A DNA stretch of 64,000 nt from an uncultured Alcanivorax sp. (GTDB lineage: Bacteria; Pseudomonadota; Gammaproteobacteria; Pseudomonadales; Alcanivoracaceae). The DNA lies in contig NZ_CAMYIV010000012.1 in NCBI RefSeq assembly GCF_947258575.1, forward strand, positions 186,001 through 250,000, read 5' to 3'. Positions 2,333-64,000 of the stretch are shown piece by piece; within the stretch, counting starts at the first letter, position 1; every line of letters begins with the position of its first letter. Under the pieces are notes generated by a model, which had not been told where the DNA came from, ran no database searches, and was given only the letters and a program-made list of their open reading frames with translations. The translations under genes and the position numbers were made by a program.

Positions 2333-2792
2333 AGTTGACAGTGGATAGTTGACAGCGAAAAGCGAACAAATACGTAGGGTCACGGATGACGACGAGGTAT
2401 GCAGCGCGGGAGAAATCCCGCGCTTTTGCTTTGCGGATGATAAAGGTTTATCAGTATCTACAAGAGCAGAAGCGAGAATTCATATTAAGTAAGCAATTGC
2501 TGCGCAGTGGAACAGCAATTGGAGCCTTGGTCAGGGAAGCTGAGCAGGCTGAGAGTCGTGCAGACTTCGTGCATAAGCTGTCTATCGCTCTCAAAGAGGC
2601 TAATGAAACGGAATATTGGCTGGAGTTATTGACGGAGTCCGGCTATTTGGAGCCTTCGTCTGGTCAGTCAGTTATGGCTGACGCCAAAGAGCTACTAAAG
2701 ATATTGACGGCAATTATCAAAACCACCAAAACGCGCCGATAAACGGGTTTCAAGGTTTTAGCTGTCAATTGTCAACTATCAACTGTCAACTG
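2333..2792. repeat. Heptad-arm inverted repeat enclosing a gene (locus A)
   Basis: Left arm (2333-2357) is a run of 7-base units of the form AGTKGAY, such as AGTTGAC and AGTGGAT. Right arm (2761-2792) is the same kind of run in the opposite orientation and can pair with the left over roughly 25-30 bases. The left arm begins a few bases after the glyA stop and the right arm ends just before the nrdR start at 2801. Between them sits the four-helix-bundle gene. This is the only heptad locus in the window that encloses a protein gene. Confidence 0.85.
2386..2742 (+). CDS. Four-helix-bundle protein of the 23S rRNA intervening-sequence type
   Basis: A 118-aa, all-helical protein with the family signature KSRAFALRMIKVYQYL near residues 10-25 and LLRSGTAIGALVREAEQAES near residues 38-57. 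Members are found in 23S rRNA intervening sequences and as free intergenic genes; the fold is shared with the Avd accessory protein of diversity-generating retroelements, which binds nucleic acid and partners a reverse transcriptase. No reverse transcriptase is present here. The gene lies entirely between two inverted heptad arms in the glyA-nrdR gap. Its early codons contain a hairpin (GCGCGGG at 2404-2410 against CCCGCGC at 2417-2423, followed by TTTT) that looks like an intrinsic terminator. Molecular function is unknown. Confidence 0.85.
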   Translation: MTTRYAAREKSRAFALRMIKVYQYLQEQKREFILSKQLLRSGTAIGALVREAEQAESRADFVHKLSIALKEANETEYWLELLTESGYLEPSSGQSVMADAKELLKILTAIIKTTKTRR

Positions 2793-2800
2793 GGGTTTCC

Positions 2801-7418: not shown

Positions 7419-7430
7419 CGCCGCCAGAAA

Positions 7431-7567
7431 CAAGCTGCAAGCGACAAGCTTCAACGCGATAAAAGCGAGTTGCCATCAATTGCAGGCTTGAGTGCGCGAA
7501 TATCGCGTACCGGAAAGACAGGGTTTGCACTGGTTTTCCTTGTAGCTTGCGGCTTGTAGCTTGCAGC
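7431..7567. repeat. Heptad-arm inverted repeat (locus B) between ribE and ribB
   Basis: Left arm at 7431-7455 is built of CAAGCNN units (CAAGCTG, CAAGCGA). Right arm at 7539-7567 is built of CTTGNNG units (CTTGTAG, CTTGCGG), the complement. The interior contains a small CGCGA/TCGCG hairpin. I looked for an FMN riboswitch in this 215-base gap before ribB and did not see the conserved elements. Confidence 0.75.
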
Positions 7568-7633
7568 TCATCACCGGTGAAAAATGCAGAGGAAGTGCAG
7601 TTTGCTTCCACGCTTGATAGGTCGAGTACCACT

Positions 7634-8749: not shown

Positions 8750-8815
8750 GCTTGCACGCAACATGCTCCACGCTTGCACGCGTGAGGCTTGCTAGCGTGG
8801 AGCGTGTTAGCGAGG
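8750..8815. repeat. Heptad-type imperfect hairpin (locus C) between ribB and ribH
   Basis: A 7-base periodic run of units containing ACGCT or GCACGC fills the gap. CGCAACATGCTCCACGCT at 8757-8774 pairs imperfectly with AGCGTGGAGCGTGTTAGCG near 8796-8814. It ends at the Shine-Dalgarno GAGGA of ribH. Confidence 0.6.
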
Positions 8816-12776: not shown

Positions 12777-12860
12777 TCGACGCCAGACGCCGAACGCAAA
12801 GAATCAAAAACCGGTTGATGCGAAAGCGGCGCCCTTGCGCTGACTAGCGTCGGAGGCCTC
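12777..12860. repeat. Heptad-type repeat (locus E) between convergent diguanylate cyclase and dxs
   Basis: Left units at 12777-12797 read CTCGACG, CCAGACG and a third of the same type. A weaker inverted counterpart (GACTAGCGTCGGAG) lies at 12842-12855. The interior has a GCG-rich hairpin. No clear T-run terminator is seen for either gene, so this structure is the best candidate for 3'-end formation here. Confidence 0.5.
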
Positions 12861-15973: not shown

Positions 15974-16466
15974 GGGTATCTCCTAGCCTGAGTGTGTCAC
16001 CAAAACGCGCTGAGCTATTCACAGGTGCGATGATAGCAGTCAGAAAGGCAGTTTGGGCGGTCTGGGTCAGTGCATCCGGCGGGAACAGTAATGCACAGGC
16101 GGTAGTGAATCAATTGCTATCTACCGATCTGCGGGGGCCCGATGGTCCATTGTTCGATTTTTTTGATGGGTTGCAAGTGGCTGATAATGAAAGGGTAAAC
16201 ACGGGATTTCAGAAGCAGGAGGGGATTGATTCCAAATGGTTCTAAACAGGGGGTTCCGGTGCTGGCGGCGGCTTGCTTATAGTGAAATGCCCGCCGGAGG
16301 CCGCAGGCAGCTTCTTCCTCTGATCTCCTAAGCTATGGCGTTTAGTCTGCGTCACCGGCGGGGATCCTCTCAAAGCGGCAACAGCGTAACCCCCAAGCAT
16401 AAACAACGTAACAGGCCGCGCCCTGGCTGGGCGCGGCCTGTTACGTTTTAAGCCGTGCCGTCGCGT
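15974..16466. other. 493-base intergenic stretch between xseB and the porin gene
   Basis: Carries the promoter region of xseB and, near its left-gene side, the long hairpin annotated at 16407-16449. Open frames crossing it have no family resemblance and start or end in neighbours' shadows. I see no further gene, repeat or RNA here. Confidence 0.5.
16407..16449. terminator. Strong hairpin with AGGCCGCGCCC core, terminator of the porin unit
   Basis: A 17-bp perfect stem (left 16407-16423, right 16429-16445) with a 5-base loop, then TTTT on the plus strand. It lies just beyond the porin stop at 16467. The core AGGCCGCGCCC/GGGCGCGGCCT recurs at 56085 and 62931, and in a variant form at 32267, as the central hairpin of heptad-arm loci. 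Here the heptad arms are missing. Confidence 0.75.
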
Positions 16467-25709: not shown

Positions 25710-25784
25710 AGAAAGGCGTTGAGCAAACCGGTGTGGAAGTAGTCAATCCGCACCGGTTTTGCGCTTTATGAAACAAGAGAGGAG

Positions 25785-25885
25785 AGTTAAAAGTTGAAAG
25801 TTTAAAGTTGCAACGCGGGCACGGCATTTCTGCTCCTGGCGCGCCATCTCCGCGCTTTTACACTTTGAACTTTCAACTTTTAACT
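25785..25885. repeat. Heptad-arm inverted repeat (locus F)
   Basis: Left arm at 25785-25812 uses AGTTNAA units (AGTTAAA, then AGTTGAA, then AGTTTAA). Right arm at 25861-25885, read inverted, gives the same units in the same order, with one base changed in the third. The interior holds GCGGGCACGG, also seen inside locus H, and GCGCGCC. It lies between two genes on the same strand (symporter and DUF294 gene), so it is not confined to convergent ends. Confidence 0.85.
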
Positions 25886-25900
25886 AACCGGTCCGTGGCC

Positions 25901-31700: not shown

Positions 31701-32219
31701 CTGGCCATTGCCGATCGCATCTGTCGTCTGCTGGGGCACCGCTTAACGGTCCGCTCCTGGCCGGGCAAGGGCACCGTGTTCAGTGTCACCGTGCCGCTGG
31801 CCAAGGGTGAGGTGCCGCCGGTGCTGCAAGAAACAGTAACCGTTAGCCAGGGCATTCAGGGCATGCGGGTTTTCTGCGTGGATAACGACCCGGCTCTGCT
31901 CGCCAGCCTGGTGGCTGCCCTGGAGATGCTCGACTGTGAGGTGATCGCCGCCAGCGGTCTTGAGGACGCCCTGAAAAAAGCCGCCACCAGCCCGGTTCCG
32001 GATGTGCTGCTGGTGGATTACCAGCTGGATGACGAAGACGGCTTTACCGTTATCGACGGCCTGGACAGCGGCTGGGACGATGTGGTCCCCGCCATCCTCA
32101 TGACCGCCGACCGCAACCCGGCAGTACGCGAACATGCGGAAGAACAGGGTATTGGGTTTCTACAGAAGCCGTTGACGGAGGGGATGCTTAGGAGAGCGTT
32201 GGAGGCAGTGAATAGTTAA
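28752..32219 (+). CDS. crbS: CrbS-type hybrid sensor kinase with sodium:solute symporter domain
   Basis: 1155 aa with a GTG start. Residues 1 to about 500 form a symporter-like membrane domain of thirteen segments; then a PAS domain (about 640-750), a coiled coil, HisKA with the phospho-acceptor H802 (AAAGHDLMQPLNAAQ), HATPase (LLSNAIRYTEQGRI, DTGPGIPD, KGLGLGLAIA) and a receiver domain with D1089 (VLLVDYQLDDEDG). This is the CrbS architecture, which governs the acetate switch with CrbR. The stop codon lies inside the left arm of heptad locus G. Confidence 0.94.
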   Translation: MFSLWQLSGLALGYVLVLFVIAWWGDRAARQDRKTFQNAWVYSLGLGVYCTSWTFYGAVGEAAQNGWNYLPIYLGPILTVLLGGALIYKMVTVAQQHHITSIADFLAARYGKSRRLAVLVTLVAIIGVLPYIALQLKAVTLSFDYVLKDSAQYGVDTALIVAALMAVFTLLFGTRHIDTTEHQSGLMLAVSFESFIKVVAFVLLGLYCLYAIFDGPMDMWQQLALQGDVLQIFEPTLFSQSFVTALLLSMVAILCLPRQFHAGVVENNDLRHLRTTRWLFPLYLLMFAIFVLPIVVAGVITQPYLIGQADTYMLSLPMAQDNSAMLMVSFIGGIAAATGMVIVSTISLAIMLTNEVLLPLWLQSRLHEKDQLAGLSRQLRFLRRASILVLLGLAFAFHTLIDRFDGLASIGLLSFAAVAQFAPALVGALYWRTGHKQGAFAGLGVGFLLWFFCLLVPVILPMEWVQVMNDRGLLGLGLLRPHALFGIEGLEPLTHGVFWSLLGNLAAFIYFSRRATHDALDEAQAARFVDMPMDWWREGIGHPSITTAELLEVCKRGLGHPRAEPLFFDYMRRRSVSEELELPAPLHLVRYVERLLAGTMGASTARIVMSTLLRKQNSRHDDVVRMMDEASELIQFNHQLLRTTIETISQGICVVDREMQVVAWNQAYVKLFDYPEGLIRLGRPIEDVYRYNAERGYYEGENLEEDVSKRVQLLREGHSHQFERALPNGIVVEVRGTPMIGGGFVSTYMDITERKRDEQALLQINENLENMVSERTRKLTEVNEKLARANEGKTRFLAAAGHDLMQPLNAAQLFTSSLRQQLIKRDGSSFVHEVDVLGHVDTSLQAAEQIISALMEISKLDTGTMPAHVHPLRLGSLMEPLSQEFSALAAANDLSLRAVICHAVVETDEGLLRRVLQNLLSNAIRYTEQGRILFGCRRQHNAIRIDVWDTGPGIPDDQHEAIFREFQRLPQQSRKAIKGLGLGLAIADRICRLLGHRLTVRSWPGKGTVFSVTVPLAKGEVPPVLQETVTVSQGIQGMRVFCVDNDPALLASLVAALEMLDCEVIAASGLEDALKKAATSPVPDVLLVDYQLDDEDGFTVIDGLDSGWDDVVPAILMTADRNPAVREHAEEQGIGFLQKPLTEGMLRRALEAVNS

Positions 32220-32367
32220 TAGTGAACAGTTAATAGTGCGCGGCGAGCGCATGTGTTTTTAATACGCACGAGGCCGTGACCAAACCATGGTCGCGGCCTC
32301 GTGTCTTGAAGAAACCATAAACCCAAAACCGCGAGCTGTTAACTGTTCACTATTAACTGTTAACTAC
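32206..32367. repeat. Heptad-arm inverted repeat (locus G) between convergent crbS and crbR
   Basis: Left arm 32206-32240 and right arm 32332-32367 are built of YAGTKAA units (TAGTTAA, TAGTGAA, CAGTTAA). Read inverted, the right arm repeats the left in the same order over about four units. The crbS stop (TAA at 32217-32219) and the crbR stop (complement of 32360-32362) both lie inside their arms. The centre is a GC-rich hairpin at 32267-32303. Confidence 0.9.
32267..32303. terminator. Central GC hairpin of heptad locus G
   Basis: CACGAGGCCGTGACC pairs with GGTCGCGGCCTCGTG over 15 positions with one G-T, around a 7-base loop. The loop and flanking bases CAAACCATGG are also found in the hairpin at 56085-56119. 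There is no good T-run, so termination would be imperfect or rely on the arms. Confidence 0.6.
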
Positions 32368-35150: not shown

Positions 35151-35578
35151 GGGACTTCCTCACTGAAGTGATGAAATTATTTTTAGCAGTCTTGGCAGTG
35201 TGCGAAAGCAAGGCTCTGGCCTGAATTAGACCTTGGTCGTAATGACGCAACAGGCGGCACGCTTCAGGTAGCAGGTAAAACCAGCAAGGCGCCGCTCCGG
35301 CGTTATCCATCTTGTCCTGGGAAGCGATGCTTGCATCGCGAAGAAGTTGGCAGGGCGTGGGGTATTCACGATGCAAGCATCGTTTCCCTCGGGGTGTTGG
35401 GAACATGGCAAGGAATCACCTGGCCGCTTTCATGTGATTTCGTCTTCGCCGGGCGTCCAGCATCAGCCGTATGGCATTTTCACTGCGTTCGACCTATGGC
35501 TAATAGTTGAGCGCACAGGGTCCGAGCAAGCTGTTCGTGGAGTGACTTACGTGTTGATGAAAACAAGAGGACAGGGCC
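35151..35578. other. 428-base divergent gap between acs and the DcaP-like porin
   Basis: Must contain both promoters. The middle (35319-35390) is occupied by two inverted REP-like hairpins. Outside those I see no gene, no ribosomal RNA or tRNA and no operator that I can defend. Confidence 0.5.
35319..35390. repeat. Paired REP-like hairpins (REPIN form)
   Basis: GCGATGC-TT-GCATCGC at 35324-35339 and ACGATGC-AA-GCATCGT at 35368-35383 are each small hairpins. Their surrounding sequence is also inverted relative to each other (GGGAA before the first, TTCCC after the second). Such a paired form is typical of REPIN elements. The head differs from the TGTAGGAGC copies. Confidence 0.65.
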
Positions 35579-42865: not shown

Positions 42866-45496
42866 ATGAGTACGACTGATGCGTCCCGGCCCGCTGCGGG
42901 TCGGTTCTACCGGAAGGAACTGGTGGCATTGCTGGATCATTGCGCCCGGGTTCCACTGACCCTGTTGCTGGCCCCGGCCGGGGCCGGCAAATCCACCTTG
43001 CTCAGCCAGTGGCAGACCGGGGCCGAGCCCCGTGGGGTGGTGTCCCTGAACCTGCGCCCGGCGGATGATGATCCGGTGCGCTTTCTGCGCCGTTTCGCCG
43101 AGCAGACCCGGGCAGTGGTGCCGGCGTTTGATACCTCCTGGTTCATGCCCTTCGATGTGGCCGAGTTGCCACCATCGTCCATTGCCGATGCCCTGTTTGA
43201 TGCTCTCGAGCAGGTCAGTGAGCCCCTGTTCATTGTCTTTGATGACTTCCAGCATATTCGCAGCCCGGAAACCCTCAGCGTCATCAGCACCCTGCTGGAC
43301 CAGCCACCGGCAGACGTCCATCTGATTATTGCCAGTCGTACCCAGCCGTCCTTTGATGTCAGTCGTCTGCGGCTGGACGATGCTGTGGTGGAGATCGGCG
43401 CCGCCGACCTGAAGATACGTCGCGAGGAAGTTACCGCGCTTAATGAAGGCCTGGGTGGCACGGCCCTGGATGAGGACGAGCTGGCTCACCTGCTTACCAT
43501 CACCGAAGGCTGGATGGCGGGGGTCAAGATTGCCCTGCTTGCGGCCATGCGTTCCGGTATGCAGACCCTGCAGGACTTTGATGCCAGCCAGCCGGAGTTG
43601 ATGGAGTACTTCGGCCATGCAGTCTTGAAAGGCCTGCCCGATACCGCCCGCACCCTGTTCATGCAGAGCTCGCTGCTGGACAGTTTCAATGCCGAGCTGT
43701 GCGACCAGGTGCTGCACAGCGATCGCGCCGCCCGCCTGATTGAGGAGCTGACCTCCCGGGAGCTGTTTCTGATCCCGGTGCCCGGCAAGCCCGGCTGGTA
43801 TCGTTACCATGCATTGCTCAAGGATTTCCTGCGCGCCCGGGTGGCCATCGACATGCCCGACTGCATCGCGCCGATTCATCGCCGGGCCACCCGCTATTTC
43901 GTGCGTCAGCAGAATTTTCGCCAAGCGGTGTGGCACGCTAAACGGGCCGGGGACGACACTCTGTTCATTCATTGCCTGGAGCAGGCCTTCGACTACTGGC
44001 TGCGCGAAGGCTACACCGCCCACATTCTCGACTGGGCGGAAACCCTGCCCGATAGCGTGATTCTCAGTCGCGACGAATTGTCCGCCCCCCTGATCAGCAC
44101 CCTGACCCTGTCGCGCCGTTTTTTTCGTGCCCGCTATTACCTGGATGCCTTGAAAGAGGCGCCACGCAGTGGTGACGCGGCCTGGGGAAATCATGCCCGG
44201 GTGATCGATTTTCTGGAAATGCACCTGCAACTGTTCCAGCACGACACCGACTTCATGGAAGGCGCCAATCTGTCGCTACTGATGGAAAGCAGCGGGCACC
44301 GGGATATCCGCGCCTTCTCCCTGGCCATGGTGGCCTACTACCATTTGCAGCATGGCCGGCTGGAATCCGCGCTGGCGTTTTCCTGCCAGGCCCGGGACGT
44401 GCTGCTGCGGCTGGGGCATCATTTTACCGCCGGTTATGCCGGGTTGATTACCGCCCTGGCCAATCACCAGCTTGGCCACATCGGCGAAGCGGTCGCCTTT
44501 ATCAACGAACACTTTCACGGCACCTCGCGGGATTGCCCCACCTGGTCCCTGTGGGCGACGGGCATGGTGGTAGTACTGTACGACCAGAACCGGCTGGAAG
44601 AAGCCCAGCAACTGTGCGAAGACTTGTTGCCCATGGTGTCGTCTGCCTCGGCCACGGAAGTGATCTCCACCGTCTACCTGACGCTGTCTCGGCTGCAGCA
44701 CTTGCAGGGCAAGCAAAAGCCCTCCGAACGCATGCTGGAAAAACTGCTCGGCATCTTGCAGCTGGGAAATTACCAACGCTTCGTCAACATGGCGGTGCTG
44801 GAAATGATGCGCCAGGCGTTCACGACCGGCCACTGGGCCCGACTGGATGCGGTAGCGGAACGCTTCGACCTGGCCGGCTGGGTGGCTGACAACGCCACGC
44901 GTACCCCGGCCACCTACAGCCAGAGCTGGGAACGCAAAGGGCTTGCCGCGGCCTACTGGCTGATCGCCAATGGCCGTCTTGCCGAAGCGGAAGCCGTGTT
45001 GCAGCGGCTGCTGGCGGTAGTGAAGGCGGCGGGCATCATGACTCGGGCTTCCATCATCGAGGCCAACCTGTTGGTGATCACCGGCAAGGGGCTTTCTGCC
45101 AGCGAGCAGGCCAAGCGGGTGGATGAACTGATCACCCGTTACGGTTTGCTGAACATCAACCGATCCGTGTTTGACGAAGCGCCGGGGCTGGCCAGCCTGA
45201 TGCAGGGGCTATGGGGCAGCGGTGCCCTGATGTTGCCGGATTTCTATACCCAGCTGTTCCCCACTGTGTTCGATGCCGCACCCGCCAACGATCCCCTGGC
45301 AGTGGATCCGGATTCGGTACTCACGCCGAAAGAACTGGAGATCTTCGAGCTGCTGCAGGGTGGCCTGAGCAATGCGGGCATCAGCGAAAAGACCGGCACC
45401 TCCATCACCACCACCAAGTGGCACCTGAAAAACATCTACAGCAAACTCGGCGTCTCCAGCCGCACCGAAGCCGTCCTGCGCGCCGCGCCGAGATGA
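42866..45496 (+). CDS. MalT/AlkS-type ATP-dependent LuxR regulator
   Basis: 876 aa. A Walker A (LLAPAGAGKSTLLSQW) lies near residues 33-48 and Walker B (LFIVFDDFQHI) near 120; a long helical-repeat middle region follows; the LuxR helix-turn-helix (LTPKELEIFELLQGGLSNAGI, residues conserved) is at about 815-870. Size and layout match MalT-type activators, among which AlkS controls alkane hydroxylase genes. No alkane gene is next to it; the heme-peroxidase gene 290 bases downstream is a candidate target. The stop (TGA) abuts the left arm of heptad locus H. Confidence 0.87.
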   Translation: MSTTDASRPAAGRFYRKELVALLDHCARVPLTLLLAPAGAGKSTLLSQWQTGAEPRGVVSLNLRPADDDPVRFLRRFAEQTRAVVPAFDTSWFMPFDVAELPPSSIADALFDALEQVSEPLFIVFDDFQHIRSPETLSVISTLLDQPPADVHLIIASRTQPSFDVSRLRLDDAVVEIGAADLKIRREEVTALNEGLGGTALDEDELAHLLTITEGWMAGVKIALLAAMRSGMQTLQDFDASQPELMEYFGHAVLKGLPDTARTLFMQSSLLDSFNAELCDQVLHSDRAARLIEELTSRELFLIPVPGKPGWYRYHALLKDFLRARVAIDMPDCIAPIHRRATRYFVRQQNFRQAVWHAKRAGDDTLFIHCLEQAFDYWLREGYTAHILDWAETLPDSVILSRDELSAPLISTLTLSRRFFRARYYLDALKEAPRSGDAAWGNHARVIDFLEMHLQLFQHDTDFMEGANLSLLMESSGHRDIRAFSLAMVAYYHLQHGRLESALAFSCQARDVLLRLGHHFTAGYAGLITALANHQLGHIGEAVAFINEHFHGTSRDCPTWSLWATGMVVVLYDQNRLEEAQQLCEDLLPMVSSASATEVISTVYLTLSRLQHLQGKQKPSERMLEKLLGILQLGNYQRFVNMAVLEMMRQAFTTGHWARLDAVAERFDLAGWVADNATRTPATYSQSWERKGLAAAYWLIANGRLAEAEAVLQRLLAVVKAAGIMTRASIIEANLLVITGKGLSASEQAKRVDELITRYGLLNINRSVFDEAPGLASLMQGLWGSGALMLPDFYTQLFPTVFDAAPANDPLAVDPDSVLTPKELEIFELLQGGLSNAGISEKTGTSITTTKWHLKNIYSKLGVSSRTEAVLRAAPR

Positions 45497-45647
45497 GTTG
45501 AAAGTTCAAAGTTTAAAGTTGAAAAGCGCGACTGATCGCGGAGTGTTGTTGTTGGCCGTGCCCGCGTCTTGCCATTAAACGCGGGCACGGCCTGGTCGGT
45601 TGCAAGGTCCTGCCCGCGTTTCAACTTTAAACTTTCAACTTGTAACT
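45497..45647. repeat. Heptad-arm inverted repeat (locus H)
   Basis: Left arm 45497-45524 is built of GTTNAAA units (GTTGAAA, GTTCAAA and so on). Right arm 45615-45647 is the same series inverted; two inner units match in order. The centre is a perfect 14-bp hairpin (GGCCGTGCCCGCGT at 45554-45567 against 45579-45592) with an 11-base loop. GCGGGCACGG inside is shared with locus F. Confidence 0.9.
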
Positions 45648-45783
45648 GCTTTCCCCAAACCATGACCCGGTTCGCGATTTCCGCTTACCCCCTCCCGCAG
45701 GAGGGGGTGGAGGGGTCGACCCCGTTGCTAGAGTCCGGGCGTTGTCATCCGACATACCCGAGAACAAAAGACGGAGGCTTATC

Positions 45784-55203: not shown

Positions 55204-55267
55204 TGTAGGAGCTATGCTTGCATGGCGAACCGGTGGGGTGGTTCGCCATGCAAGCATAGCTCCTACA
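55204..55267. repeat. Perfect REPIN, 28-bp arms
   Basis: TGTAGGAGCTATGCTTGC continuing to 55231 is matched without mismatch by its inverted copy at 55240-55267, with an 8-base loop. This is the cleanest REPIN in the window. It lies between divergent yidD and START-domain genes. Confidence 0.9.
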
Positions 55268-55366: not shown

Positions 55367-56026
55367 GTGAAAGCCATTGTTCTGGCGATGTTGATGTTGG
55401 CGGCACCCACCTGGGCGGCCGATTGGGAGCTGAACCACGAGGGGGCGCAGCGGGGTGAGGTGACCACCTATGTGCGTGAGGTGTCCGACAGCCCGGTGAA
55501 GGCCTTCAAGGGCGTGGTGGAGCTGCAGACCAGCGCCACCTCGGTGCTGGCGGTGCTCACCGCCGTGGATACTTTCCCGGAGTGGATATTCCAGAGCCAG
55601 GGTGCGGAGCGGCTCAGCATGGCAGAAAAAGAGCGTATTCACATGCGCTTCAATGGCATCTGGCCGGTGGCGGACCGGGATGTGGTGCTGGCCAATACGC
55701 TGACCCAGACCGCCGATGGCGAGATTCACCTGCACAGCGAGAACGCCGAGGGCTTCAAGGACAAGCAGCAGGGCTTCGTGCGCATCCCGGCCCTGGATAA
55801 CCAGTTCGTGATCACGCCGCTGGCGGACGGCTGGGTACGGGTGAAATTCGAGACCTTCGTGGACCCGGGCGGCAACGTGCCGGTATGGCTGGCCAACCTG
55901 GTGTCTACCAGGGCGCCACTGGTGACTCTGGAAGGGTTGAAGGAGCAGTTGCAGCAGCCGCGGTTTGCCAACGCCACGCGGGAGGATCTGCCGGGGTTGC
56001 CGGGGATGGATGCGTTGAGGCTTTGA
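55367..56026 (+). CDS. Exported START-domain lipid-binding protein
   Basis: 219 aa with a signal peptide (VKAIVLAMLMLAAPTWA) and a START-like fold (FPEWIFQSQGAERLSMAEKERIHMRF). GAGGAG lies seven bases before the GTG at 55367, which fixes the start against an ATG at 55346 and a much longer frame that runs through yidD's complement. The ligand is probably a lipid, but unknown. Its stop TGA overlaps the start of heptad locus I. Confidence 0.85.
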   Translation: MKAIVLAMLMLAAPTWAADWELNHEGAQRGEVTTYVREVSDSPVKAFKGVVELQTSATSVLAVLTAVDTFPEWIFQSQGAERLSMAEKERIHMRFNGIWPVADRDVVLANTLTQTADGEIHLHSENAEGFKDKQQGFVRIPALDNQFVITPLADGWVRVKFETFVDPGGNVPVWLANLVSTRAPLVTLEGLKEQLQQPRFANATREDLPGLPGMDALRL

Positions 56027-56123
56027 GTTGAAAGTTTAAAGTTCAAAGTTGAAACGCGAGTAGAGGCCAGAAGTGCTCAAGCAAAAGAGGCCGCGCCCAA
56101 ACCATGGACGCGGCCTCTTGCGT
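56025..56123. repeat. Half heptad locus (I) with central hairpin
   Basis: Left arm 56027-56054 has four GTTNAAA units and begins on the START gene stop. The hairpin AAGAGGCCGCG at 56085-56095 pairs with CGCGGCCTCTT at 56109-56119, followed by GCGTTTT. The matching right arm is missing; a different 7-base-periodic stretch (CTTGTGG, CTGCAAG) stands in its place near 56156-56175. Confidence 0.75.
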
Positions 56124-58042: not shown

Positions 58043-58071
58043 GACGCCTCCGGGGCGGAGATTAAATCCGC

Positions 58072-58152
58072 TGTAGGAGCTCCTCTTGAGGGGCGAACTG
58101 TGCCTGGCAAAATTGTCGCAAGCAGGTTCGCCCCTCGAGAGGGGCTCCTACA
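58072..58152. repeat. REPIN between thrS and hisI
   Basis: TGTAGGAGCTCCTCTTGAGG plus GGCGAA (58072-58097) pairs with the inverted TTCGCCCC...GCTCCTACA end at 58127-58152. The 30-base middle is unpaired. It occupies nearly all of the 120-base gap between thrS and hisI. Confidence 0.8.
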
Positions 58153-58162
58153 GGTGCTTCGT

Positions 58163-61863: not shown

Positions 61864-62040
61864 CTGTAGGAGCGTCGCTAGCGAGGCGATAAGTCAGTCA
61901 CGAGTCACGAGTCACGAGAAGCGAAAATCATCAGGCTTTACCGCGTTTTGGGGTTTGCCTTTCGAAACTCGCTTCTCGCAACTCGAAACTCTGGCTATCG
62001 CGCTGCCAACGACGTTATTCGCTACGCTCCTACAACAAGA
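61864..62040. repeat. Heptad locus J nested inside REP arms
   Basis: Inner arms: left 61893-61927 has units of GAGTCAC; right 61962-61991 has the inverted units (GAGTTTC, GAGTTGC, then GAGAAGC) and shares GAGAAGCGA with the left. Outer REP arms: TGTAGGAGCGTCGC at 61865 and an inverted GCTACGCTCCTACA ending at 62035. It is the only place where the two repeat families are nested. Confidence 0.75.
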
Positions 62041-62066: not shown

Positions 62067-62879
62067 GTGCGTATTTATTTTTTTGTAGTGCTCTGTCTGC
62101 TGTCACCTCTGTCGCTTGCCAGCGACTGGCTGCTATCCCTGGAAGGGGAGCGTACCCAGGGGGCGCTGTTGCGTGGGCAGGTGGCGCCGGAGGTGACGGT
62201 CAAACTGGGCGACCGGGCCGTGCGGACCACGCCGGAAGGTTTTTTTGCCGTTGGTTTCGGCCGTGATGACGCCCTTGAGCAGGTGTTGGTACTGGAAAGG
62301 CAGGGTGAGGCACAGCAGGTACCTGTGACGCTTAGCAAACGGGAATACGACATCCAGCGAATTGAGGGCGTGCCCAAGCGTACCGTGGAGCCGCCGCCGG
62401 AAGCGGTGCTGAAGCGGATCCGGCATGAAGTGGCCGAGATCAAGACAGCGCGGGATACCGACTCTGCCTTGCTGGCCTTCCTCAGTGATTTTCAGTGGCC
62501 TCTCACCGGGCGTATCAGCGGTGTTTACGGCAGCCAGCGGGTCTACAACGGCAAGCCGGGCCGCCCCCACTATGGTGTGGACGTGGCACGGCCCACCGGT
62601 ACCGTGGTGGTGGCCCCGGCGGATGCGGTGGTGACCCTGGTGCAGGACGATAACTATTATTCCGGCGGCACCCTGATCATGGATCACGGCTACGGCGTAT
62701 CCTCCACCATGATCCACCTCAGCGAGGTACTGGTGGAAAAAGGCCAGACCGTGAAGCAGGGCGACCCGGTGGCCAAAGTCGGCGCCTCCGGCCGCGCCAC
62801 CGGCCCGCACCTGGACTGGCGGTTGAACTGGTTTGAGGTGAAGCTGGATCCGGTGACGGTGGTGGGGGAGATGCAGTGA
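62067..62879 (+). CDS. M23-family peptidase (LytM-type), exported
   Basis: 270 aa from a GTG with GAGG six bases upstream; the frame also opens at TTG 62055. Signal peptide (MRIYFFVVLCLLSPLSLA), a beta domain, and a C-terminal LytM domain with H168 and D172 (HYGVD) and H248 (HLDW), the zinc ligands of an active peptidoglycan endopeptidase. The stop TGA lies inside heptad locus K. Confidence 0.92.
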   Translation: MRIYFFVVLCLLSPLSLASDWLLSLEGERTQGALLRGQVAPEVTVKLGDRAVRTTPEGFFAVGFGRDDALEQVLVLERQGEAQQVPVTLSKREYDIQRIEGVPKRTVEPPPEAVLKRIRHEVAEIKTARDTDSALLAFLSDFQWPLTGRISGVYGSQRVYNGKPGRPHYGVDVARPTGTVVVAPADAVVTLVQDDNYYSGGTLIMDHGYGVSSTMIHLSEVLVEKGQTVKQGDPVAKVGASGRATGPHLDWRLNWFEVKLDPVTVVGEMQ

Positions 62880-63036
62880 ACAGTTAATAGTGAATAGTTA
62901 ACAGCTGCGCGATCCAGGGTTTTCATGTTTGAAACGCAAGAGGCCGCGCCCATTCTCTGGGCGCGGCCTCTTGCGTTTCAAAACCTATAGTCCGCAACCG
63001 CGTCGCTGTTAGCTATTCACTATTAACTGTTAACTA
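62874..63036. repeat. Heptad-arm inverted repeat (locus K), the cleanest copy
   Basis: Left arm 62874-62905 and right arm 62999-63036 have YAGTKAA units (CAGTTAA, TAGTGAA and others). Two inner units are in the same order in both arms; two outer ones differ by one or two bases. The M23 gene stop lies in the left arm and the cyclase stop in the right. The centre is a 21-bp perfect hairpin at 62931-62979. Confidence 0.93.
62931..62983. terminator. 21-bp perfect hairpin at the centre of locus K
   Basis: GAAACGCAAGAGGCCGCGCC at 62931 to 62951 pairs without mismatch with 62959-62979; the loop is 7 bases. It ends in TTGCGTTTC. It lies between convergent genes and should terminate or protect both messages. 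Its core recurs at 16407 and 56085. Confidence 0.85.
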
Positions 63037-64000
63037 ACTCAACATCTCCACCAACCCCTGACTGTTCATCAACGCCACCCGATTACGCCCGGCGCCCTTG
63101 GCCTGATAGAGGGCTTCGTCGGCCTGTTTGAGCAATTCGGCACTATTGCTGGCGCCGTGGTCGGAGCAGGAGACGCCCACACTGATGGTGACCACCTGGC
63201 TGACCCGGGAGCCGCTATGGGGCAGGCCCAGCTGCTCCACCCGATTGCGCATCCGTTCGGCAAACACCAGGGCGTCGTTGAAGCTGGAATCGGTAAGCAC
63301 GATGACAAATTCCTCGCCGCCATAGCGCGCGACGAAATCGGTCTCTGCCTGAACCATGGAAAGGGGGACGTTGGATATTTTCTTCAGGCATTCATCCCCG
63401 GCCGGGTGGCCGTAGGTATCGTTGTACTGTTTGAAAAAATCGATATCGAACAGCAGCAGGCTGATGCGTTCCGGTGCATCCGGGTTACCCTGCTTGTGCA
63501 GATGGAACAGGTGATTGAGCCGGGACTCCATGCCGCGCCGGTTGATGCAACCGGTGAGGCCATCCACGGTGGCCTGGTTTTCCAGAACCAGGTTGGCGGA
63601 ATGCAGTTCGTTACGATGCTGGTAAAGCACGTGTTCGGAGAGGAAGTGCTGGCGCAACAGCCGCTCGTACACATACTGGCCAAACAGGCTCATGCTGGCA
63701 AAGGCCATAGCCACCATAGTCAGAGTAGTAGCCTCGAAGGGGGTTCGTTCCGGGTTGGCGATCAGCGTGGCGACCATGGCGCTGATCATCACCGTGGAGC
63801 TGAGCAGAGCGGAGTAGAACGGCACACGAACCAGGATGCAGATCATGATGATCGACATCGGGGTGTGCAGGAAAAAGGTATAGGCAAGCGGGTGCTCGAC
63901 ATGCACGCCGAGATAATTGCCGGTCAGTGCGATGGCGAAAGCCAGGGCCAGCGTGGCCGGGTGAAGCCACTCTCGCCACTGGAGTGTGCGGGCGAGAATA
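63034..64000 (-). CDS. Membrane diguanylate cyclase, 5' end beyond the window
   Basis: The frame continues to the right edge without a stop (about 322 codons). Several membrane segments (beyond 63640) are followed by a GGDEF domain with GLTGCINRRGME-type start and ARYGGEEFVIVL active site, both intact. The visible GTG at 63906 is internal; the real start lies outside. The stop TAG is inside the right arm of locus K. Confidence 0.9.
   Translation of the reverse strand, partial: ILARTLQWREWLHPATLALAFAIALTGNYLGVHVEHPLAYTFFLHTPMSIIMICILVRVPFYSALLSSTVMISAMVATLIANPERTPFEATTLTMVAMAFASMSLFGQYVYERLLRQHFLSEHVLYQHRNELHSANLVLENQATVDGLTGCINRRGMESRLNHLFHLHKQGNPDAPERISLLLFDIDFFKQYNDTYGHPAGDECLKKISNVPLSMVQAETDFVARYGGEEFVIVLTDSSFNDALVFAERMRNRVEQLGLPHSGSRVSQVVTISVGVSCSDHGASNSAELLKQADEALYQAKGAGRNRVALMNSQGLVEMLS

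Follow-up and report, generated by a model that had tools for sequence, protein, structure and literature searches.

Inverted arms of tandem heptamers as probable ends of mobile S23 cassettes in Alcanivorax and other bacteria

REP and REPIN sequences are dispersed, intergenic, hairpin-forming copies that are tied to a gene family residing elsewhere in the genome, and MITEs are short, have inverted ends and lack a transposase gene. Another gene with a place among such elements may be that of the "23S rRNA intervening-sequence protein" (S23; PF05635 / TIGR02436), which is known from insertions in rRNA genes; the family of apparently mobile DNA elements of which it is the only gene is little studied, and insertions in rRNA genes of CPR bacteria are reportedly the subject of one published study. 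In the intervening sequence of Coxiella, according to the accessible text of PMC4990558, tandem heptamers stand 5′ of the S23 gene and the stem is cut by RNase III; the same text calls the function and origin of S23 intervening sequences unclear. Among the papers listed in a search that covered subscription papers and preprints thinly, this is the only one we saw to join intervening sequences with heptamers, and an earlier description is possible. Heptameric repeats as such have been described as GGGAATC in Xanthomonas, as TAACTGA in Beggiatoaceae and as heptanucleotide elements in Geobacter (PMC4692102, PMC4679880, PMC2700814). In the portions of these papers open to us, the Xanthomonas study mentions some inverted repeats (PMC4692102), the TAACTGA repeats are nearly all direct (169 sets, one indirect; PMC4679880), and a heptanucleotide GGGACCG element occupies 49 places in Geobacter metallireducens (PMC2700814). 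As a lead only, an S23 gene of Xanthomonas codiaei (L147) is flanked by arms of GGGACCG units. Here we describe arms of this kind in a stretch of 64,000 nucleotides from an uncultured Alcanivorax sp. (contig NZ_CAMYIV010000012.1, positions 186,001 to 250,000; hereafter the window), and compare them with the flanks of S23 genes in many bacteria. It is probable, in our judgement, that inverted heptamer arms are the ends of mobile S23 cassettes, that is, cassettes of the 23S-rRNA-intervening-sequence kind, outside rRNA.

Paired heptamer arms in the window

When the window was scanned with 18-nt windows requiring at least 14 matches at lag p, for periods from 4 to 14, 13 runs of period 7 were obtained; the counts at p = 4, 5, 6, 8, 9, 10, 11, 12 and 13 were 0, 1, 6, 0, 1, 0, 0, 2 and 0, and p = 14, a multiple of 7, gave 8. 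An inverted partner (18 nt, at least 15/18, within 600 nt) exists for 12 of the 13 period-7 runs, which are the arms of seven loci, and for one of 200 random 28-nt windows used as a control. A pair scan with a looser run cut (13 instead of 14) returned complete pairs at 7430/7538, 25776/25855, 32205/32333, 45493/45615, 61891/61966 and 62872/63003. In a 200-kb sample of the same genome (G000), period 7 gave 12 inverted pairs, two of them with a common right arm, and one direct pair, and periods 5, 6 and 8-11 gave no inverted and no direct pair at all. Paired seven-base-repeat arms are a real feature of this DNA. The first-pass annotation, made from the letters alone, had seen facing heptamer arms at six clear loci, all of which are borne out, and less clearly at four others, of which the one at 61893 is confirmed as a pair by the pair scan; that at 56025 turned out to be a lone arm whose best partner reaches 10/18, that at 8750 is a short hairpin, and at 12777 neither the window scan nor the pair scan yielded a pair or a period-7 run.

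The arms are given here on the forward strand. Directly after the stop codon of glyA (SHMT) at 2326 stands a left arm of the AGTTGAC class (2333..2361), and its counterpart (2756..2794) ends just 5′ of nrdR (2801). This 2333/2756 pair was returned by an inverted-repeat search (29 nt at 83% plus 22 nt at 95%), the left arm lying under the period-7 cut with 12/18. Between glyA and nrdR the two arms bracket an S23 gene at 2386..2742 (PF05635 23S_rRNA_IVP, 1.8e-25; TIGR02436 four helix bundle protein, 2.5e-29), which had been overlooked when the arms, themselves real, were noted. Among the window elements it is the only one with an S23 gene inside; in the other paired elements 37-96 nt separate the arms, and since such an interior is too short, an S23 gene cannot fit there. 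An S23-less element of the AAGCTNC class has its left arm at 7430..7455, between two ORFs taken by eye for ribE and ribBA, and its right arm at 7538..7570; this right arm, like the six arms that follow, was found in both the window scan and the pair scan. Left arms of the AGTTNAA class at 25782..25814 and 45494..45526 face partners at 25856..25887 and 45617..45648, and one of the AGTCACG class at 61892..61927 faces a partner at 61967..61992.

Two elements of the AGTKAAY class are placed between convergent genes so that the arms contain the ends of both. At 32206..32238 the left arm holds the stop codon of the upstream ORF (ending at 32219), and the right arm at 32334..32366 holds that of the convergent ORF (32360). 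In the 62874 element the left arm (62873..62906) holds the stop codon of an M23 peptidase gene (ending at 62879), the right arm (63009..63037) holds that of a convergent GGDEF gene (63034), and a terminator-like hairpin with a GGCCGCGCCC stem lies inside at 62931..62979; folded as single-stranded DNA, the whole element is very stable (z -15.4 against 200 shuffles). The lone arm, of the AGTTNAA class (56024..56056), is followed by a terminator-like hairpin. A short degenerate hairpin (22 nt, 86%) without a period-7 run was found by the inverted-repeat search at 8760..8808, and the corresponding gap in several relatives holds heptamer arms, recognised by eye and also as pairs by scan.

Several window arms are at the 3′ ends of ORFs, holding or adjoining stop codons, and window cassettes are mostly located directly behind stop codons. 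A role of the arms in supplying stop codons was considered and rejected, three-frame stops being present in 30 of 96 left arms compared with 48% of shuffled units. Nor can terminators alone account for the arms, which also bracket S23 genes; a terminator-like hairpin at 16405 has no period-7 run beside it. Intrinsic terminators are GC-rich hairpins with a T run behind them; the inner hairpins are terminator-like by eye, and the arms lie outside them. A recurring terminator-like stem, GGCCGCGCCC / GGGCGCGGCC, is seen in the window at 16405-16447 and in many S23-less elements, both with and without heptamer arms. Separately, near-perfect inverted pairs with GTAGGAGC and GCGAAC are located at 55204-55267 and 58071-58153, with a related-looking pair at 35319-35388; the pairs at 55204-55267 and 58071-58153 resemble REP/REPIN repeats.

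S23 genes, their flanks and S23-less copies in other genomes

How general is the arrangement found at glyA-nrdR? S23 loci were collected in four groups: 30 from the own genus, 30 from a phylum sample, the top 80 among at least 576 relatives found in a named genome collection, and a further 20 loci of the phylum sample. The flank test asked for an 18-nt complementary pair of at least 15 between 200-nt flanks and was applied to 159 usable loci; L242, with a short flank, is outside this test, L315-L317 are outside the 159, and L003, a partial S23 match of 26.8 bits, is outside all counts. Complementary flanks were present at 124/159 loci (30/30, 21/30, 61/80 and 12/19 by group) and a repeat period common to both flanks at 101/159 (25, 20, 48 and 8), the shared periods being 7 in 89 hits, 8 in 11, and 6, 9 and 13 in one hit each. 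In control windows moved 600 nt outward, against which Fisher tests were run, pairing was seen in 7/145 and a shared period in 0/145. Because the 30 own-genus loci come from few chromosomal sites and L253 and L254 are identical, the counts outside the own genus are given as well: 94/129 for pairing and 76/129 for a shared period. At 25 of the 159 loci neither complementary flanks nor a shared period were found. The record titles in the best-80 group include Bacteroidota, Clostridia, Planctomycetes, Chloroflexi, candidate phyla and two archaea, one of the archaeal-titled records having arms (L103) and the other showing neither sign (L141). Left arms contain more G than C in 78 of 96 cases. Inverted arms built of tandem units, 7 bases long or in some cases 8, enclose most of the S23 genes examined.

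The units at L238 and L242 (period 8, CAGTAGGG) look related to those at L049, L052 and L056 (period 7, CAGTAGG), as if one extra base had spread through both arms. At L001, L021, L023 and L024, one arm is expanded to about 10 or more near-perfect copies and the other has about four. Within the genus, 16 of 17 genomes have an S23 match, and in the genome of the window a second S23 gene exceeds the cut-off and is likewise flanked by heptamer arms, of which one is a long TTGTAGC array. Solved structures of S23 relatives are available (2gsc and 2rld, five chains each). A weak profile similarity to Avd, the accessory protein of diversity-generating retroelements, was seen in one of the three S23 proteins scanned (2.9e-5, 24 bits against a cut-off of 80).

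As for rRNA itself, an Rfam search of 40 S23 loci placed one, L253, within bacterial LSU rRNA. The heptamer arms of this 23S rRNA insertion pair at 17/18, with period-7 scores of 12 on the left and 16 on the right, and the identical pair L253/L254 sits in an rRNA duplication of at least 2.3 kb. Taken with the heptamers of Coxiella, the arms of L253 therefore indicate a common architecture for at least these rRNA insertions and the intergenic elements. The window elements are not located in 23S rRNA, the window having zero Rfam matches; since only one of 40 loci is in LSU rRNA and none in the window, we call the window elements intergenic relatives of rRNA intervening sequences and not intervening sequences proper.

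The S23-less copies in G000 belong mainly to the classes AAGCTNC, GTTRAC/AGTKAAY and AGTTNAA. Copies of the GTTRAC kind measure about 165 bp and have a GCGCG clamp and, in most, a GAGGCCGCGCCC hairpin, their interiors being otherwise diverged; most GTTAAC-type S23-less arms of this genome are one substitution away from its own S23 class and not identical with it. Inverted period-7 pairs per 200 kb number 12 in G000, 2 in G001 (no S23 match), 5 in G206 (with S23) and none in G302 (of the same genus, no S23). There were also none per 200 kb in G066, G062, G087 and G235, all of which but G062 carry S23, and none per 100 kb in G202 and G250 (S23) and in G078 and G174 (no S23). Presence of S23 is thus not sufficient for S23-less copies, the samples of 100-200 kb from the S23-bearing G066, G087, G235, G202 and G250 having none.

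Across the order, S23 exceeds the cut-off in 16/145 genomes. The single-arm pattern AAGCTNC has at least 16 hits on several contigs in 4/145 genomes, all with S23, and one hit in one S23-less genome (hypergeometric 1e-4, or 9e-4 with the own genome left out and 0.02 by genus); the reversed pattern, used as a control, hits the S23-free G102 17 times and G328 twice. Hits of AGTTNAA are distributed over contigs in two genomes with S23, G000 (49, against 4 for the control) and G209 (176, against 17), and fall into single arrays in G434 and G438, both without S23. The GAGTNNC pattern proved uninformative, with four places in the own genome and elsewhere one contig each in five genomes that have no S23 match in the same sample. 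The class of the S23 arms is that of the other heptamers in G206 and G209, and in G398 by eye on weak arms; in G423 the arms of the one S23 found do not match the AAGCTNC arrays. The link between S23-less copies and genomes with S23 is suggestive only and confounded by shared ancestry.

Exchange of cassettes and turnover of their units

The gap of the 62874 element could be compared in the genomes with the M23 neighbour, which is present in 11/17 (the remaining six yielded no M23 gene, which leaves no comparable gap). Six have two arms, two have one arm by eye (G006 and G009), and three have none (G002, with a gap of 29 nt, G008 and G011). G000 and G004 have interiors identical at 90/90 positions between flanks of 0.92 and 0.89 identity. 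G003 is nearest to G000 in the GGDEF gene (0.94; 0.89 on the M23 side), yet it carries a different element, whose interior agrees with that of G012 at 87/91 positions (96%) only as the reverse complement, and at 0.65 directly. S23-less cassettes have been exchanged at this gap, one of them inverted between two species.

At glyA-nrdR, four arm classes were found in 16 genomes, and each class marks both arms. On the tree of the element interiors, arm class requires three changes, which is the minimum (shuffled mean 8.7, 0/200 as low), while on the tree of the flanking genes it requires eight (shuffled 8.8, 78/200 as low); class C2 is a weak clade in the interior tree, present in 49% of bootstrap trees. 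In all five pairs compared that combine near flanks with different classes, the elements agree clearly less (0.60-0.85) than the flanks do (0.88-1.00), as in G006/G009 (element 0.67-0.75, flanks 0.93-1.00). Among 11 pairs of the same class, the interior exceeds both adjoining gene ends in similarity in six and fails to do so in five; in G010/G016 the element is 0.98-1.00 alike and the flanks are 0.78-0.94. Cassette and arms have been exchanged between species at this site as one unit, and such swaps could also have come about by recombination in the conserved flanks. The proposal that the arms belong to an element beyond known terminators or REPs gains support here, since the same arm design ends S23 elements that are exchanged as units. 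A second S23 site, before a gene read by eye as cysC, gave 13 elements of AAGCTAC, AGCTACG, AGTTTCG and AGTTGAA types, again in both arms; there G001 (L287) has a broken S23-like remnant with degraded arms, judged by eye, and G004 has other DNA. The arms of L315 and L316, one site in two genomes of one genus, are by eye of different classes, possibly a further class change at one site. Different species also carry different element classes in the ribE-ribBA and ribBA-ribH gaps (names by eye). L043, in the ribE-ribBA gap, is by eye a hybrid, its left arm belonging to the ACGCNNC class and its right arm to the AAGCTNC class. Where gap boundaries were compared, at two gaps, the cassettes occupy most of the gap and no target-site duplication could be read; a filter for copies at a new site within one genome, as expected from recent transposition, listed no case.

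How closely do the two arms of an element agree? Units were compared in the 98 of 160 elements in which both arms score at least 14/21, at least two of the 98 being runs of N, which lowers the own-arm value. Own left and own right units agree at 5.67/7, and units of different loci at 3.56/7. Between different sites, unit similarity is near background (3.3-3.9 of 7) for S23 proteins 30-79% identical, and it reaches 5.6 where proteins at a single site are more than 80% identical; a fixed protein-DNA specificity was rejected as the sole cause, because units decorrelate from protein similarity at different sites. It had also been claimed that the order of variant units agrees between arms and that this comes from arm-to-arm copying. 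Observed order does beat permuted arms in 15/17 S23-less and 61/74 S23 elements, in a test where pairing was fixed before permuting, which favours the observed order; every permutation is beaten in only 3/17 and 1/74, respectively. In 12/17 S23-less elements, some other element supplies a right arm that matches at least as well as the own one, so that order agreement is largely a family property, and private copying from arm to arm falls as the only explanation. Copying itself is compatible with the data (both arms change together, G.U pairs are not in excess, one copy is inverted) and is left unproved by the 12/17. Chance pairing and independent drift of the two arms had been named as findings that would speak against the whole idea; neither was found, although single arms and one hybrid element exist. 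In the aligned arms of 106 distinct S23 elements, from the first 140 loci, there are 2107 Watson-Crick pairs, 37 G.U, 57 A.C and 121 other mismatches. Because G.U mismatches are not in excess over A.C, the pairing looks DNA-level, and we infer that maintenance of the arms as DNA is a better reading than selection for an RNA stem.

Origin of the arms and comparison with known systems

What, then, keeps the two arms alike? One answer is that each heptamer is a site for S23 and that both arms change as the specificity of the protein changes. Arm class tracks S23 lineage at glyA-nrdR, and S23-less or dispersed heptamers are of the class of the S23 element in G206, in G209 and, judging weak arms by eye, in G398, which would suit this answer; we nevertheless consider it unlikely, as the period can be 8 and, since units are near background (3.3-3.9/7) between proteins 30-79% identical at different sites, S23 specificity would need very fast change. 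Selection for a long RNA stem, through processing by RNase III or protection of 3′ ends and with compensatory changes, appears rather less probable still. It is true that the Coxiella intervening sequence is excised by RNase III within its stem (PMC4990558, as far as its accessible text goes), that the 62874 element folds very stably (z -15.4, although computed as DNA) and that several window arms are at ORF 3′ ends, but an excess of G.U would be expected, and 37 G.U were seen against 57 A.C (binomial p 0.049, in the opposite direction); moreover, all units of both arms switch class together, beyond what pairwise compensation needs.

Slippage might grow the arrays while recombination of flanking genes swaps the cassettes, S23 being a passenger. 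Heptamers are over-represented in bacterial genomes and polymerase slippage has been proposed for them (PMC4692102, PMC4679880, in the parts open to us), long arrays are found in one arm of some elements (L001), and S23-less single arrays exist (G434, G438 and, for GAGTNNC, five further genomes), as do the 17 hits of the reversed control in the S23-free G102. This combination leaves unexplained the single period of the inverted arms around S23 genes in many phyla, the rarity of direct pairs (1 versus 12 inverted in G000) and the occurrence of different elements between near-identical flanks; we give it only a slim chance, below that of the RNA stem. An artefact of composition or chance in low-complexity intergenic DNA can be practically dismissed: two weak loci, 12777 and 8750, were missed by the period-7 scan, but other periods, random windows, shuffles and displaced windows are all near zero, which refutes it.

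If the arms are the ends of mobile S23 cassettes, as we think probable chiefly on the strength of the glyA-nrdR tree and the displaced-window control, the cassette would move as DNA, folded into a hairpin by pairing of its arms. While the units turn over, copying and recombination between these arms, by template switching and inversion, might keep them alike, and cassettes would replace one another at sites behind stop codons. S23, a small four-helix-bundle protein, probably binds the paired arms, and it may serve S23-less copies in trans. An RNA route is also conceivable, given the weak, below-cut-off likeness of one S23 protein to Avd. A bolder picture, which we offer tentatively and would not ourselves bet on, is that S23 elements are a widespread unrecognised kind of mobile DNA, in Bacteria and at least one archaeal-titled record, the ends of which are self-renewing inverted arrays of 7-8 bases: S23 would act by shape and period, the arms would rewrite each other, and many dispersed bacterial heptamers would be footprints or passengers. 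The elements present a case in which the sequence of element ends turns over while period and inverted symmetry persist. They join two puzzles, the function and origin of S23 intervening sequences (PMC4990558) and the excess of heptamers in bacteria, for which slippage is only hypothesised in the text at hand (PMC4692102), and a puzzle of scattered bacterial repeats can now be put to the test on a single small gene with its two arms.

Among known systems, rRNA intervening sequences share with the present elements the S23 family, a length of a few hundred bases and complementary ends, the last of which the window elements also possess. The present elements differ in that they are intergenic, with S23-less copies around terminator-like hairpins, and in that their arms change freely in sequence and their cassettes are exchanged between species. 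To Avd of diversity-generating retroelements the likeness is limited to the weak profile similarity of one S23 protein, below the cut-off. The heptamers of Xanthomonas, Beggiatoaceae and Geobacter are likewise intergenic heptamer units, but the descriptions of them, in their accessible portions, contain no link to S23. Like MITEs, the elements are short with inverted ends, although these ends have an internal period and are not the same in different families. Like REP and REPIN sequences, they include dispersed intergenic hairpin-forming copies; a REP is a conserved palindrome that a REP-associated tyrosine transposase moves, whereas the arms here are tandem heptamers whose sequence varies by locus, and the associated gene is S23.
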